This document shows positions 38,878 through 47,381 of a stretch of 48,329 nt of DNA, piece by piece. Position 1 is the stretch's first letter. Every line of letters begins with the position of its first letter. Below the pieces are notes generated by a model. The model was not told where the DNA came from. It was given only the letters and a program-made list of their open reading frames with translations, and made no database searches. The DNA lies in assembly GCA_016839875.1 (NCBI GenBank), contig JAEOTK010000174.1, positions 1 to 48,329 on the forward strand, given 5' to 3'. Origin of the DNA: Candidatus Heimdallarchaeota archaeon (GTDB taxonomy: Archaea > Asgardarchaeota > Heimdallarchaeia > Heimdallarchaeales > Heimdallarchaeaceae). A program made the translations under genes and the position numbers.

Positions 38878-39618
38878 TTAACCTCTGAAGAAGATAATTA
38901 TACAAACTAATGCTGCAATAGAGATCATCATTATAAAAATATCAATAATTCTGATGCTAAGATCTAGCAAATGATTATCTCTTCTTATTGGTTTAAATCC
39001 TTTTAATATCATAGATTCTGCTAAATCCACTCCTCTATTCATAGATCCTGTTATAAGGGGTTTGAGAGTTTTTCTTAAGATGTAAAATTGCTTTCCCATC
39101 TTCCACTTTTTTGCGGTTAAACCTTTCAGTTTACGGATATTATTGATCTCAATTACTTCTTTACTAAGAACAGGAATAAATTGGTATATTGTAGTAATTA
39201 ACCAAGTTAAGATTGATGGCACATACATCTTTTCCAAAGATATAGAGAGCTCATAAGGACTTACAGTATAGAAGAACCAGCTTATTATAAAGAACGAGGA
39301 TACTAGCCGTATCTCAATTGCTGCAAAGAACATGTAGATGCTTTCTATTGTTACTGTATAATGAGCAATTAGGGTAGCTAATCCTGAAAATAACGACAAG
39401 AAGAAGACAGCTACTAGAATATATTTAGGATTTATTCTTGATATTAGAACTAATAATAAAGAAAATGAAACCAAGCTTATTAGGACGTATAAGTTCATCG
39501 AATATAAGACACTGACAAGAAAAGCTATTAGAATTACTAACTTACTTCTTGGATCAAGATAGGTTGTTTTCTTGTATGTAAGAAAAACACTTTCTTTTGT
39601 ATTGTTGTTTCTCAACAT
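38878..39618 (-). CDS. ecfT: ECF transporter transmembrane component EcfT
   Basis: A 246-residue membrane protein with five to six helices. EcfT couples ATP hydrolysis by EcfA to the vitamin- or metal-binding S component. The coupling-helix motif, normally A-R-G, appears as MNRGVDLAESM after the cytoplasmic helices, and LTAKKWK precedes it. A GGAGAAAT ribosome site lies before the ATG. It follows the EcfA-like double ATPase gene by 15 nt, so the two form one operon. No S component is seen in the window, which suggests a shared (group II) module. Confidence 0.88.
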   Translation of the reverse strand: MLRNNNTKESVFLTYKKTTYLDPRSKLVILIAFLVSVLYSMNLYVLISLVSFSLLLVLISRINPKYILVAVFFLSLFSGLATLIAHYTVTIESIYMFFAAIEIRLVSSFFIISWFFYTVSPYELSISLEKMYVPSILTWLITTIYQFIPVLSKEVIEINNIRKLKGLTAKKWKMGKQFYILRKTLKPLITGSMNRGVDLAESMILKGFKPIRRDNHLLDLSIRIIDIFIMMISIAALVCIIIFFRG

Positions 39619-39633
39619 ATATATTTCTCCTAA

Positions 39634-41109
39634 TTATGCAGTGTCTATTTCACTCCTCTCTGAAATTTTGAGTAAGTGATTTTTGTCTAAAACAGGACAT
39701 AATTTGCCCTGATCCAGATACACTATCCTGTCGACAAAATCAGCTAACCAATCCCAATCATGACTTACTATGATGATTGCTTTGTCATTTTCTTTTAATT
39801 TCTTAAATTGCTTAATTAACCATTCTTTATTCTGTTGTCCCAATCCATTGGTTATTTCATCTACAATTATAATATCTGGATCATGATAAATTGCAGTAAG
39901 AAATGCGAGTCTTCGTTTTTCTCCATGAGAGAGAGAATGAGGATTGTTTTCCTTATACTCATTTAACATACTCTGAACTAGTAAATTTGAAATTTCTTGA
40001 TCTATTACTTCTTTTCCAAGATTCTTTGCTATAAAACCTATTTCTTCTTCTACTGTCTCTTCAAAAAATTGGATTTCTGGGTTTTGAAACACAACACCAA
40101 TATGCTCCGAGATAGTTTTCCATTCAATTTGCTTTAATTCATCATTATTTATGCGAATTTCTCCTGTCTTTGGTTCTAATAATCCACACATTAATTTAAT
40201 CAAGGAAGTTTTGCCAGATCCATTATCTCCTATAATTCCAATTATCTCTCCTTTGTTTAATGTAAGTGATATGTTGGCTAAATCGAGTAAATTTGGATAT
40301 TCAAATGAAACATTATCAATTTCGATTATTCCTGCATTCGGAATGTTTTTTTTATTCCCATATTGGCTATTTTTCTGTATAGGTATTTTTTTCTTGCTTC
40401 GCTCTTCCTTTTTTTCTTTGGATAACATTGAATCTTTTGTGATTTTCCCTTCTTCTAATTCAATTAGCCTTGTCGCAATTCCTTCATATTGTTTATATTC
40501 ATGAGTAGAAACTATCACAGTTTTACCTTCGGCATGAAGTTTTTGGAGAATTGAGAGAATCTTCTTCTTATTATTTATGTCAAGATTCGCTGTTGGTTCA
40601 TCAGCGATTATGATTTCTGGTCTAGTGGCTAAAGCACATCCAATAGCTACCTTTTGTTTCTCTCCTTCTGATAGATTCTCGACCTTTCTATACAGTATTT
40701 TCTTCAAATCAATTTGTTTTGTTATTGTTTCTATTATCTCTGTAATTTCGTGTCTTGGATAACCACGGTATTCTAAGGAAAAAGCTAGTTCAGAAATGAC
40801 GTATGGTGTTGTAAAGGAATTCTCAATTCTTTGAGGAATATATCCCATACTCTCTGATAATGTAGAAACCGAAGTTTCTAGCACATCCTCTTGTTTGAAA
40901 CATACACGTCCCTTCTGTTCTCCAGTGTAGAAATGTGGAATAAGACCAAGGATAGAATAACAAAAAGTACTTTTTCCACTTCCACTTGGACCTGTTAAAA
41001 CAACAAACTCATTTTCTAGTATTGATACTTTCAGGTCTGAAATCGTCCATTTTTCTCGCAGGTTATAACGAAAACTATAATCCTCAAATGAGATGGCTGT
41101 TTTTGACAT
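39634..41109 (-). CDS. fused double ATPase of an ECF transporter (EcfA-EcfA')
   Basis: A 491-residue protein with two ABC ATPase domains. Domain 1 has Walker A GPSGSGKST, signature LSEGEKQKVAIG and Walker B IIIADEPTAN. Domain 2, from about residue 265, has GDNGSGKTS, LSHGEKRRLAFL and IIIVDEITNG. The Walker B of domain 2 ends in DEIT; Glu is kept in both. The two EcfA subunits of other ECF transporters are separate polypeptides or, as in many archaea, fused like this. A basic linker rich in Lys/Glu joins them (residues 225-250). It sits 18 nt downstream of the DHH gene and 15 nt upstream of ecfT, so all are probably co-transcribed. Confidence 0.92.
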   Translation of the reverse strand: MSKTAISFEDYSFRYNLREKWTISDLKVSILENEFVVLTGPSGSGKSTFCYSILGLIPHFYTGEQKGRVCFKQEDVLETSVSTLSESMGYIPQRIENSFTTPYVISELAFSLEYRGYPRHEITEIIETITKQIDLKKILYRKVENLSEGEKQKVAIGCALATRPEIIIADEPTANLDINNKKKILSILQKLHAEGKTVIVSTHEYKQYEGIATRLIELEEGKITKDSMLSKEKKEERSKKKIPIQKNSQYGNKKNIPNAGIIEIDNVSFEYPNLLDLANISLTLNKGEIIGIIGDNGSGKTSLIKLMCGLLEPKTGEIRINNDELKQIEWKTISEHIGVVFQNPEIQFFEETVEEEIGFIAKNLGKEVIDQEISNLLVQSMLNEYKENNPHSLSHGEKRRLAFLTAIYHDPDIIIVDEITNGLGQQNKEWLIKQFKKLKENDKAIIIVSHDWDWLADFVDRIVYLDQGKLCPVLDKNHLLKISERSEIDTA

Positions 41110-42979: not shown

Positions 42980-44116
42980 TTAAATACAACGATATACGGA
43001 TGTTGGTCCAATTTCTTTGTATTCTTTCTTGGTAACCCATAGTTTTGCAAAAGTCTTGAGGGAGCTTAAAATACTTCCACCAATCCAGACAGAATATCTT
43101 CTCTCAGGAGGTGCAATGATTTTTACTTCCATTGTCTCAGGAACTAATTCAGTTAGTTCTTTATGTAGACGTTCTTTAAGACCTGGGAACATAGTAGAAC
43201 CGCCAGATAGTACAATATTTGCATATAGATCTCTTCGAAGATCGACATCACAGTTTTGTATTGATCTGTATATTAATTCGTCTAGTGGGTTTTCTTCTGA
43301 TCCAATAGCACCTGGATTAAAGAATAATTCAGGAGCCATGAAACGTTCTGCACCAATGGTTAATGTTTCACCATCTGGTAATGTGTATGTTTTCTCCATT
43401 CCAGAAACTTTCTCAGCAAGCTTTAATTCCTTCTCAGGATCTAGAGCTACGTAACAAAGGCGTTCCTTAATATCTCGGACTATTTCTCTCTCTGCACTGC
43501 TTGAGAGTGAATAACCTCGCTGACGTAGAAGTCTGCGGAGATAGTCTGTAACATCACGTCCACCTATATCTGAACGATGAATTGCATGACTAATTGCAAA
43601 CCCTTCATAGACCGGAACGATATGTGTAACTCCATCTCCGGAGTCAACAACTATACCGGTTGTACGACCTGAAGCGTAAAGAGATAAGATAGCCTGCATT
43701 GAAATGTACATCGCTGGTACATTAAATGTATCAAACATCAATTCCGCCATTTTCTCCTTATTTTGATTTTTATTCAAAGGAGGTTCAGTTAGCAGAACAG
43801 GATGTTCATTAGGATTGACTCTTAAATCATTGTAGAAAGTATAATGCCAAATACGCTCCATTGCATCCCAGTCTTGAACTTGTCCATGCTCTACAGGATA
43901 GACTAGTTTCAAAACACCTCGGAGGTTAATAGCTTCCTCGCCTATGTAATATTCACGCACGTAGTGCTCGACATCAGTCATGATTATTTGATATTTTGGA
44001 TAACCAATAATTGTTGGGAAAACGCTTCTGGGTTGGTCTTCACCAGCAAAACCGTTTTTAGTAAAACCAGTACCATTATCTATAACCAGTGGTTTGTTCT
44101 GTATCATCTCTTCCAT
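42980..44116 (-). CDS. actin (Asgard lokiactin-type)
   Basis: A 378-residue actin, essentially the size of eukaryotic actin. Phosphate loop 1 is [17 protein letters not shown], phosphate loop 2 is [13 protein letters not shown], and the nucleotide-binding segment is [10 protein letters not shown]. The Pro-rich loop [17 protein letters not shown], the YPVEHG segment with the His equivalent of H73, and the C-terminal [12 protein letters not shown] also match actin. The N terminus is longer than that of actin and the C terminus ends VYRCI. I chose ATG 44116 because AAAGTGAT lies just before it; the GTG at 44125 is part of that site. Such actins form filaments and are a hallmark of Asgard archaea. 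A promoter-region inverted repeat is listed separately. Confidence 0.97.
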
Positions 44117-44159
44117 AGTTATCACTTTTTACTAACTTTGTTTGAATCCATTTAGTTAT

Positions 44160-44350: not shown

Positions 44351-45199
44351 TCAGAAATCGTTCTGTGTTGTTCTATTAACTAGTTTAGCTCGTTTTTCTC
44401 TTCTCTCTTGCTTTTCATCTGTCATGAACTGATCTAAAATCTTTTCCTGTTCTTTTGAATAAAATTTTCCTTTTGAAAAAACAATCTTAACCTTGTCTTT
44501 TTGTTCCTTAGATTTTAAACCTTGAATTTTCACATTGGGATCAGTGCAGAGAACATATGATTTGTCCACACCTCCTAGTTGTCCCAAATCAATATTTTTC
44601 AATTTATTTCGTTCAAAAGACAATGAAGCTATATTCTTGTATTGAGCTAATGGTTTAAGATTTATTTTTGAGATTTTATTGTCCCCAAGATCGATTTCAG
44701 AAATTTTTTTGCATAGCATTAAAGCATCTAATTCAATGCTTTTTATTTCATTACTATAAAGACGTAATTCCTTAATCTTTGACCATTTAGTTTTTTCATC
44801 TATTTCTATCTTCTCGATTAAATTATAGTCTAGATTGATTGCTTTTAGATTCTTATTGTTCCTTAAAGGTTTAAGGTTAATTTCCTTGAGGAGGTTATTC
44901 TGAAGATTAAGCGATTCTAATTCCAGACATTCATTTAAAGGACTAAGGTCTATCTTTACTATTTGATTGTTGCTTATATCCAACCTTTTGAGTTTCTTAC
45001 ATTTTGATAAAGGTGATAAATCTATATCGATCAATAAATTAGAACTTAGATTCAATTCAATTAAATCAACAAACCCTGAGAGTTGAGATAGGTCGACTTC
45101 TGATATACTTAAGCAAGAGAGATTCACATCTTGTATCTTCTGATCAATAGTAATATGAAAACTATCGCTATTTTGTTTACCCGATATTACTATGTGCAT
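44351..45199 (-). CDS. leucine-rich-repeat protein (SDS22-like)
   Basis: About 282 residues from ATG 45199; the longer frame starts at a TTG without a ribosome site. Residues 25-225 hold eight or nine leucine-rich repeats of 22-25 residues, with consensus LxxLxLxxNxIxxIDLxPLxxC. These form an arc that binds other proteins. The C-terminal 50 residues are highly charged (Lys/Glu), with an RRE-type basic helix. LRR proteins of this type are abundant in Asgard genomes. There is no signal peptide or membrane helix, so it is cytoplasmic. The partner is unknown; the actin gene is the next gene downstream on the same strand. Confidence 0.85.
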   Translation of the reverse strand: MHIVISGKQNSDSFHITIDQKIQDVNLSCLSISEVDLSQLSGFVDLIELNLSSNLLIDIDLSPLSKCKKLKRLDISNNQIVKIDLSPLNECLELESLNLQNNLLKEINLKPLRNNKNLKAINLDYNLIEKIEIDEKTKWSKIKELRLYSNEIKSIELDALMLCKKISEIDLGDNKISKINLKPLAQYKNIASLSFERNKLKNIDLGQLGGVDKSYVLCTDPNVKIQGLKSKEQKDKVKIVFSKGKFYSKEQEKILDQFMTDEKQERREKRAKLVNRTTQNDF

Positions 45200-45226
45200 T
45201 TTATTCAATCTCTTGGTCTGAACCAA

Positions 45227-45557: not shown

Positions 45558-47381
45558 ATGAATAAGAAATTATTTACACTTGCACTTGTTGCAATATTCA
45601 GTACATCAATAGTGATGGGAGCTACTTCAGCTCAAACAACAGAAATAAACATAGCTTTTTCGATTAACTTGTTGTCACCCAATACAAGTCCTGCGAGAAA
45701 TCAATGGTCACTATTGATGGAGCAAACTCTGCCAAAAATAGGAATAGGTATTACTTTCCATGAATCAACAGGATGGGGTAATATAGCACCACGAACATGG
45801 TCATATCCAATGCTGGATTATGATTACATTCCTACATATGCAGAGGGCGGTTATGATCTCCTTTTTGTTGGTTGGTCATGGCCTCTTGATTTGAACCTAC
45901 AGAGTTTATATGAAACTACTGCAATCACTCCTAATGGAGATAATCACTACCAATATAGTAATCCTACATATGATGATTTGTTAGAAGATTATATGGCAGA
46001 ATTAGACTTCACAGAGAGAATACTACTTGCAAAGGAACTCCAAGAAATTATCTATGAGGATCTTCCAGGTGTAGCTCTTGTTTATCCACGATCACTCTTT
46101 GGATTTAAAGAAGGTCTTACTGGTATTGATGATCTACTGCTTGCTAGTACTAATCATCGTGTAGAATTCTGGGATGATCCTGAGGATCATATAATAAAAT
46201 ATGCAATTCCAGCAGATCTTAGAGAACCAAACGTCTATCAAGCTGAATCATTTTATGATTGGCAGTGGATGTACCCAGTTTATGGTTGTCCAGTTAAAAG
46301 AGCACAAAATACTCATCTTTGGGAACCTGAGATAGCTTCTGAAATAAATGTAACCGATGTAATAGATGATAAAATCAATGTTACAGTAACACTAGATCCA
46401 AATGCCAGATTCAGTGATAATGAACTTGTTTTACCAGAAGACCTCAAATACAGTTTTGAATTGCACATGACACCTGCTGTTGGAAGCTCAAATTATGGTA
46501 CTCTAACATATTGGTTCCCCACTAATGCATCAATCTCTATTGTAGGTGGAGCCCCTGGAAATGTAGCAGGAGGACAAGTATTGTTCGAATTTTCTGGTGT
46601 TTTCAACCTGTGGGAGAGTATATTCAATACTCAAATTATTGATAAGCATGCTCCTGGTAGTACTGGTGTTGCAGATTTAATCGGTATACATGGATATGAT
46701 ATATTCAATGATGTTCCTGGAACTGGAGATGCTGTATTTAATTTGGTTAAATCCTGTGGTCCATTCATGATGGAAAGCTATGATTCTATCAACAGTGTTG
46801 TTAAACTGGTTCCTAATCCATATTGGCATGGAGAACCAGTCAAACTAACAGAATGGTATCTAACATTTATCTCTGGTAAAGACAGCGCAGTAGCTGCACT
46901 TCTATCTGGTGAAATCGATCTAATGGATGCTCAATACTTCCCAGTCTTAGCAGACTTTGAAGGTGTAGCAGGTATAGAAGGTGTTTTGGTTAAAGATCCA
47001 AGCCATCAAGAAATGTCCATTAATCTATTACATCCTGTAATGGGTACCGGTGAATTAACTCCTCTTGGAACTCCAGAAGCTGCTAAATATATTCGACAAG
47101 CAATCAGTCATGCCGTACCTCGTCAAACAATTGTTGATGAAATACTAGAGGGTCTTGGTGCTCCAGCCACAACAGCAATCCCTGATTCTGTTATTGGTTA
47201 TGATGATACATTAGAACCTTATGCGTATGATTTAGATCTAGCTATCGATTTGATGGAAAGCGCAGGTTACACAATAGAAGTCGAAGTTCCAGAAACTACT
47301 GGTATTGCAGGTCTAGTTTTCATTGCACTCCTTGGCTTATCAGCTCTTGAAGCAATGAGAAGATTACGATCGAAAAAATAA
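45558..47381 (+). CDS. family-5 solute-binding protein, apparently circularly permuted, membrane-anchored
   Basis: A 607-residue secreted binding protein of an ABC importer for peptides, nickel or sugars. A signal peptide covers residues 1-25 and a single helix plus basic tail (582-607) anchors the C terminus. The order of parts is unusual. Residues 28-200 match the C-terminal lobe of family-5 proteins (KIGIGITF, YDLLFVGWSWPLD, YSNPTYDDLLEDY, ERILLAKELQEII). Residues 205-573 match the N-terminal lobe and hinge (LDPNARFSDNE, CGPFMMESYD, VPNPYWHG, LLSGEIDLMD, IRQAISHAV, YDLDLAIDLMESAGY). The normal protein runs N-lobe to C-lobe; here the C-lobe comes first, joined at the usual post-AGY position. 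No permease genes are in the window. Confidence 0.8.
   Translation: MNKKLFTLALVAIFSTSIVMGATSAQTTEINIAFSINLLSPNTSPARNQWSLLMEQTLPKIGIGITFHESTGWGNIAPRTWSYPMLDYDYIPTYAEGGYDLLFVGWSWPLDLNLQSLYETTAITPNGDNHYQYSNPTYDDLLEDYMAELDFTERILLAKELQEIIYEDLPGVALVYPRSLFGFKEGLTGIDDLLLASTNHRVEFWDDPEDHIIKYAIPADLREPNVYQAESFYDWQWMYPVYGCPVKRAQNTHLWEPEIASEINVTDVIDDKINVTVTLDPNARFSDNELVLPEDLKYSFELHMTPAVGSSNYGTLTYWFPTNASISIVGGAPGNVAGGQVLFEFSGVFNLWESIFNTQIIDKHAPGSTGVADLIGIHGYDIFNDVPGTGDAVFNLVKSCGPFMMESYDSINSVVKLVPNPYWHGEPVKLTEWYLTFISGKDSAVAALLSGEIDLMDAQYFPVLADFEGVAGIEGVLVKDPSHQEMSINLLHPVMGTGELTPLGTPEAAKYIRQAISHAVPRQTIVDEILEGLGAPATTAIPDSVIGYDDTLEPYAYDLDLAIDLMESAGYTIEVEVPETTGIAGLVFIALLGLSALEAMRRLRSKK

Follow-up and report, generated by a model that had tools for sequence, protein, structure and literature searches.

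The closest described counterparts of the protein considered here are binding proteins of the DppA/OppA/NikZ type (PF00496, cluster C), with which it shares the sequence family, a signal peptide and, over the matched part, the fold; Dpp-type permease genes are also found beside at least one of its permuted relatives. The order of the parts differs: in place of the canonical order (N-C), the protein has the C-terminal part followed by the N-terminal part, its termini lie in lobe 2, and its C-terminal membrane helix follows what was formerly the middle of the chain. The one precedent found in the open-access literature, in another structural cluster, is MglB-2 of Treponema pallidum (Tp0684, TpMglB-2), likewise a binding protein of an ABC importer that was circularly permuted in nature. 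In its description (PMC4990184), TpMglB-2 is presented as a permuted 'Type Ic / Cluster Bc' glucose-binding protein that retains ligand binding and ligand-induced closure, and the type is assigned to treponemes and Gram-positive bacteria; there, the authors name membrane anchoring as a possible reason for the permutation and see no immediate structural advantage. TpMglB-2 has the cluster B sugar-binding fold and another cut, whereas the present protein is assigned to cluster C, and the permuted part of TpMglB-2 is poorly conserved in sequence, whereas both parts align well here; the family-5 permutants are mostly archaeal, show two different cuts and are spread over more than one clade. No report of a permuted family-5 protein or of permuted archaeal binding proteins was found among the open-access papers searched.

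The window, that is, the whole stretch of 48,329 nucleotides that was analysed, carries the gene and the parts listed here, each with the evidence on which the assignment rests.

45558..47381, + strand: circularly permuted family-5 solute-binding protein gene, 607 amino acids, ATG start (open reading frame, Pfam, PDB matches, order in homologues, rejoining)
45558..45638, + strand: predicted signal peptide region, residues 1-27 (hydrophobic N-terminus; helix 3-24 in the model)
45660..46127, + strand: segment corresponding to the C-terminal part of canonical proteins, residues 35-190, placed first (HMM, Ccan positions 1-149, E 1e-59; PDB matches)
46128..46190, + strand: new junction of about 21 residues, from the old C-terminus to the old N-terminus (HMM limits; junction lengths of relatives)
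46191..47270, + strand: segment corresponding to the N-terminal two thirds of canonical proteins, residues 212-571, placed second (HMM)
47268..47273, + strand: cut site after LMESAGY, where canonical relatives continue into the C-part (HMM; canonical relatives)
47301..47375, + strand: C-terminal membrane anchor, helix 582-606, with basic residues at the end (sequence, model, hydrophobic C-termini in relatives)

The direct neighbours of the gene encode a leucine-rich-repeat protein (44351-45226, minus strand) and a protein with no Pfam family above the cut-off. An actin-family gene (42980-44125, minus strand) and a gene for a CbiQ-like protein (38878-41109, minus strand), which adjoins a double ABC ATPase, are located further away in the window.

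As an earlier note on this DNA had proposed, the encoded family-5 (SBP_bac_5) solute-binding protein was confirmed to be circularly permuted in nature; its C-terminal third comes first. Two HMMs seeded from a canonical-order protein and grown by iteration, which were used to read the order of the parts, assign residues 35-190 to the C-part (E 1e-59) and residues 212-571 to the N-part (E 5e-113), far beyond chance. In phmmer searches against the PDB, positions 383-481 of 8efz correspond to residues 99-196 and positions 165-322 to residues 399-571, so that the order is swapped; the same swap is seen with 5f1q and 6ofq, with a weaker stretch for the C-part, and the exchanged-order matches were reproduced with a profile of 31 family members. 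The native chain matches PF00496 with 131 bits (cut-off 32.4), over residues 257-574 alone (profile positions 4-281 of 368); the profile is not matched through to its end, the matched portion lies at the C-terminal side, and the native C-part has no match to it. When residues 207-573 and 28-206 were rejoined in that order, the match extended to profile positions 4-349 and rose from 131 to 143.7 bits, and the PDB matches became single and continuous (for example, 8efz 165-481 and DppA 250-477). Both parts are homologous to one parent and lie in exchanged order within one reading frame, which is what defines a natural circular permutant. This reading is upheld by each test that had an outcome: the profile order, the matches after rejoining, the modelled structure of the larger part, and, as described below, the order in homologues, the independent genomes and the canonical relatives of the subfamily.

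The full-length structural model (pLDDT 85.3, pTM 0.79) is mostly well predicted in both parts, with low confidence at residues 71-80 and 82-90. Structural alignment, with coverage limited to residues 207-574, places model residues 211-573 on DppA 1-342 with an rmsd of 2.3, and superposition recovers the DppA/OppA cluster C fold over the N-terminal two thirds; the structural matches listed for the model are DppA/OppA/NikZ-type proteins, and a match to a family outside this listing is possible. For the C-terminal half of lobe 2 and the return to lobe 1, sequence profiles match but the isolated piece folds poorly (11 rows, mean pLDDT 44.4), and residues 30-206 are therefore judged on the full-length model and on the sequence. 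Model residue 573 corresponds to DppA residue 342, which lies within lobe 2, with the lobe limits taken from a study of oligopeptide-binding proteins (PMC10924461). Accordingly, lobe 2 is split, with one portion at the C-terminus of the chain and the remainder at the N-terminus. The proposal that the lobes stand in the wrong order is therefore loosely worded: the C-part and the N-part are exchanged, and the cut falls inside lobe 2, not between the lobes. In the same study, the N- and C-termini of oligopeptide-binding proteins are described as near each other (PMC10924461), which makes such a permutation feasible. The sequence and the model both show the signal peptide ahead of the moved part and the anchor behind the other part.

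A protein search returned 314 relatives at E <= 1e-5 from 7997 candidates scored. The 120 matches listed of these 314 include the window protein itself; of the other 119 homologues, 117 have the C-part before the N-part and the remaining two are partial. Two canonical-order relatives, which appear to display the ancestral order, show most clearly that the window protein arose by rearrangement of an ordinary one: L085 (genome G030) is 35% identical to it over 466 aligned positions and 46.5% in the C-part, and L089 (G046), which sits near permease genes, is 32% identical overall and 43% in the C-part. Both carry the same subfamily motifs as the window protein (LSPNTNPARNQW, KIGIGV and STGWGDI.PRT), but with the N-part followed by the C-part. 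A PDB search with a divergent permutant, L052, gave weak matches only (best E 0.039).

The window protein most likely serves an ABC importer as its peptide receptor, anchored in the membrane, with the ligand class inferred from the family and from the neighbours of related genes. Taken as a whole, a permuted, membrane-anchored cluster C binding protein that captures peptides for a Dpp/Opp-type permease is an explanation in which we have high confidence. The signal peptide would export the protein and the C-terminal helix would hold it in the cell membrane; the chain would fold as the usual two-lobed Venus-flytrap, with a linker of about 21 residues between what were once its N- and C-termini. 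The new termini would lie in lobe 2 (at about DppA 342/343), probably in a surface loop, so that the anchor would emerge from lobe 2, and oligopeptides captured outside the cell would be passed to a permease that is presumably encoded elsewhere in the genome.

The alternative that survives best, although we regard it as improbable, is that the permuted protein has another job, such as surface sensor, adhesin or scavenger, and feeds no ABC permease. It draws on the extra domains of some relatives, on the five to 14 profile matches per genome, a count that takes in fragments and weak partial matches, in nine genomes to which the loci led, and on the neighborhood of the window gene, where no permease family was found among the 19 of 45 window frames of at least 100 amino acids that were scanned. 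The neighborhoods of several relatives speak against it and make the best argument for function. The Dpp names of neighbouring genes follow the usage for these families. Directly downstream of the permutant L188:8102-9808 from Baldrarchaeia (G040), on the same strand, lie DppB-, DppC-, DppD- and DppF-like genes, and a bacterial type 2 permutant (from Bacillota; types are defined below) adjoins a DppB-like gene. A prolyl oligopeptidase gene precedes the L188 permutant and an M20 peptidase gene adjoins the L189 permutant, which fits peptide use. In G005, a pair of permease genes is followed, at a distance of about 1.1 kb, by a permutant that runs off the contig (L185:8329-9207).

A further argument for permease partners comes from G059 (Heimdallarchaeum endolithica, P0104), a single contig of 3,326,783 bases and presumably a closed genome. 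It yields 16 PF00496 matches on 13 loci, namely 11 intact type 1 genes, one frame-broken type 1 gene and one fragment of the N-part, and no canonical-order family-5 protein was found in it at the sensitivity of the PF00496 profile. In the same genome, the 14-kb stretches that hold a DppBCDF-like set (L177) and a DppB/C pair (L176) lack a binding protein gene; in G002 and G005, by contrast, a canonical protein is encoded beside permease genes. Given that only permutants are found and that the permeases have no adjacent binding protein, the permutants appear to serve unlinked permeases. The frame-broken gene, L179:3413-4977 (minus strand), is split over two overlapping frames.

Still less probable, in our judgment, is a domain-swapped chain, whose C-part would pack against the N-part of a second molecule to give a dimer or a string. 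Chains of this family can be concatenated, as the tandem arrays (L054, L105 and, for type 2, L134) and the fused C-N-C-N protein L064 indicate; the monomer model, with both parts mostly well predicted (pTM 0.79), speaks against a swap but is not decisive, nor is the length of the junction. In type 1 frames the junction has a median of 21 residues and a 5-95% range of 20-34 (228 frames, some identical), as expected for close termini within one fold. Finally, an assembly chimera or mis-joined gene, for which no supporting evidence was found, has a negligible probability and was rejected on the strength of independent assemblies, given that a full-length relative 86% identical to the window protein is found in another assembly, that matches at E <= 1e-60 were obtained in 29 of 195 same-phylum genomes, and that the same order occurs in relatives on megabase contigs, among them one of 3.08 Mb (Heimdallarchaeum aukensis) and one of 3.33 Mb (H. 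endolithica).

A single permuted, anchored binding protein that feeds an ABC permease thus remains the preferred reading, and the distribution of this architecture was surveyed with the two part HMMs. We denote as type 1 the C-N order of the window protein and as type 2 the order in which the second half of the N-part is followed by the C-part and then by the first half of the N-part. Altogether 297 of 709 different frames and proteins matched the HMMs, comprising 200 of type 1, 48 canonical, 26 of type 2, two C-C-N, one C-N-C-n1 and 20 partial (9 N, 4 C-n1, 3 n2-C, 2 C and 2 n2); the loci were chosen from search rows, some of them overlapping, and these counts are not frequencies. With L067 as the query (G040; its near-copy P0121 is named Baldrarchaeia), the 120 listed of 4962 matches include 93 canonical, 21 type 1 and six type 2 proteins. 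Five of these 21 type 1 proteins have an organism name, one Baldrarchaeia and four Thermoprotei, Thermoproteota or Desulfurococcaceae. A metagenome bin reached via an Anaerolineae record likewise contains type 1 (L189); the contig has just 4,594 bases, which leaves the bin assignment unsure. A Chloroflexota survey at E <= 1e-50 matched three of 61 genomes, with one match spanning both parts; the cut-off was strict and this fraction is not a measure of rarity.

The type 2 cut corresponds to window residues 427/428, in the loop after NPYW. All 120 listed of 662 matches to a type 2 query from a Lokiarchaeota-named record, the query included, have this order, and the organism names among the other listed matches are Thorarchaeota in all cases but two. 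Type 2 also occurs in Bacillota (L190, a metagenome bin), where a survey with the type 2 protein at E <= 1e-40 matched three of 61 genomes, including that of the query. Type 2 is multi-copy in Thorarchaeota-type genomes, with five tandem copies at L134 and further examples at L133 and L138-L155 and among P0241-P0360; the first frames of L138 and L139 (1693 and 1971 amino acids, ended by the fetched end) begin with a type 2 permutant. Of the 228 type 1 frames, 22 retain a stub of an Asp/Gly-rich loop where they are cut, and each of these comes from the Baldrarchaeia/Thermoproteota set or from genomes G027, G029 and G062. The same motif occupies the equivalent loop in 30 of 141 canonical frames and in 80 of 152 frames of type 2, counts in which identical proteins may be included more than once.

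Several relatives have more complex architectures. L064:1-2883 (minus strand, ended by the contig end) joins a divergent permutant to a window-type permutant through a TSP3-like linker that scores just below the Pfam cut-off. L063:2020-3129 (minus strand) consists of a signal peptide, the last quarter of the N-part and the C-part in canonical order, followed by a FIMAH domain, and thus represents half a binding protein. In L122:1441-3816 (plus strand), the anchor of a permutant is followed by a cysteine-rich tail that may comprise a zinc ribbon and a RING-like domain.

Among proteins from loci, a hydrophobic C-terminus is present in 84 of 86 type 1 proteins and in all 23 of type 2, against 17 of 44 canonical ones. 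Of the 72 tree rows, four permutants lack it (P0180, P0210, P0173 and L097) and 15 canonical proteins have it. The tree offers five independent pairs for anchor versus permutation, too few to show a link, and the association between permutation and a C-terminal anchor is therefore a lead only.

The number of origins was addressed with trees built from de-permuted alignments, after near-copies had been removed by identity thresholds and frames discarded in which one part or the other was insufficiently covered; the trees were made quickly and have long branches. Five long or poorly aligned loci were dropped from the 62-row tree and thirteen from the 73-row tree, all canonical except L155 (type 2, 62-row tree). 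The best 62-row tree requires five changes for type 1, at least three of them forced by branches with SH-aLRT of 95 or more, and the 73-row tree requires seven, at least four of them forced at the same level. A single clade of all type 1 proteins (26 of 62 rows) was rejected by the AU test (p 5.9e-9). Two further groupings were rejected in 32-row sets that were hand-picked from the 73 rows after the tree was seen, namely one clade that unites the Baldrarchaeia/Thermoproteota proteins and the window's group (8 of 32 rows, p 1.6e-6) and a type 1 clade of 6 of 32 rows (p 9e-37; nearer permutants were left out of this set). These tests do not distinguish several gains from a single gain followed by several returns to canonical order. 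Type 2 forms one clade in the best 62-row tree (five rows, L155 dropped) and needs two changes in the 73-row tree (eight rows, L155 included), where a single clade was not rejected (AU p 0.559). The canonical proteins L085, L089 and L135 are nested in the window's group on the tree, and the window's group as one clade without them was not rejected (p 0.407), so that the order of these three can be explained without a reversal.

As judged from these sequences, permutation occurs in more than one clade and at two cut sites. The permutants would have arisen when a gene was duplicated in tandem, the copies fused and their outer parts were lost; duplication with loss of both outer parts is a plausible route, and tandem arrays and a fused two-copy protein do exist. 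A broader and more tentative scenario, which we consider slightly short of an even bet, is that permutation of family-5 proteins was recurrent and selected: it would have occurred at least twice independently at the same site in lobe 2 and once more at a lobe 1 loop, spread to multi-copy families in Heimdallarchaeia and Thorarchaeota, and replaced the canonical order in Heimdallarchaeum because it shifts the tether on the flytrap and so changes the lobe that is held at the membrane.

Profile-based domain annotation shortens these permutants and masks their architecture. The surprise lies in the number of lineages and the two cuts in which family-5 permutation has occurred; in one single-contig archaeal genome (G059), the permuted form is the sole form found of this receptor family. 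With many permutants, two cuts and canonical sister proteins, the family provides a natural experiment on why chains permute, and it poses the question whether the position of the tether on the two lobes matters for the hand-over of ligand to the ABC permease.
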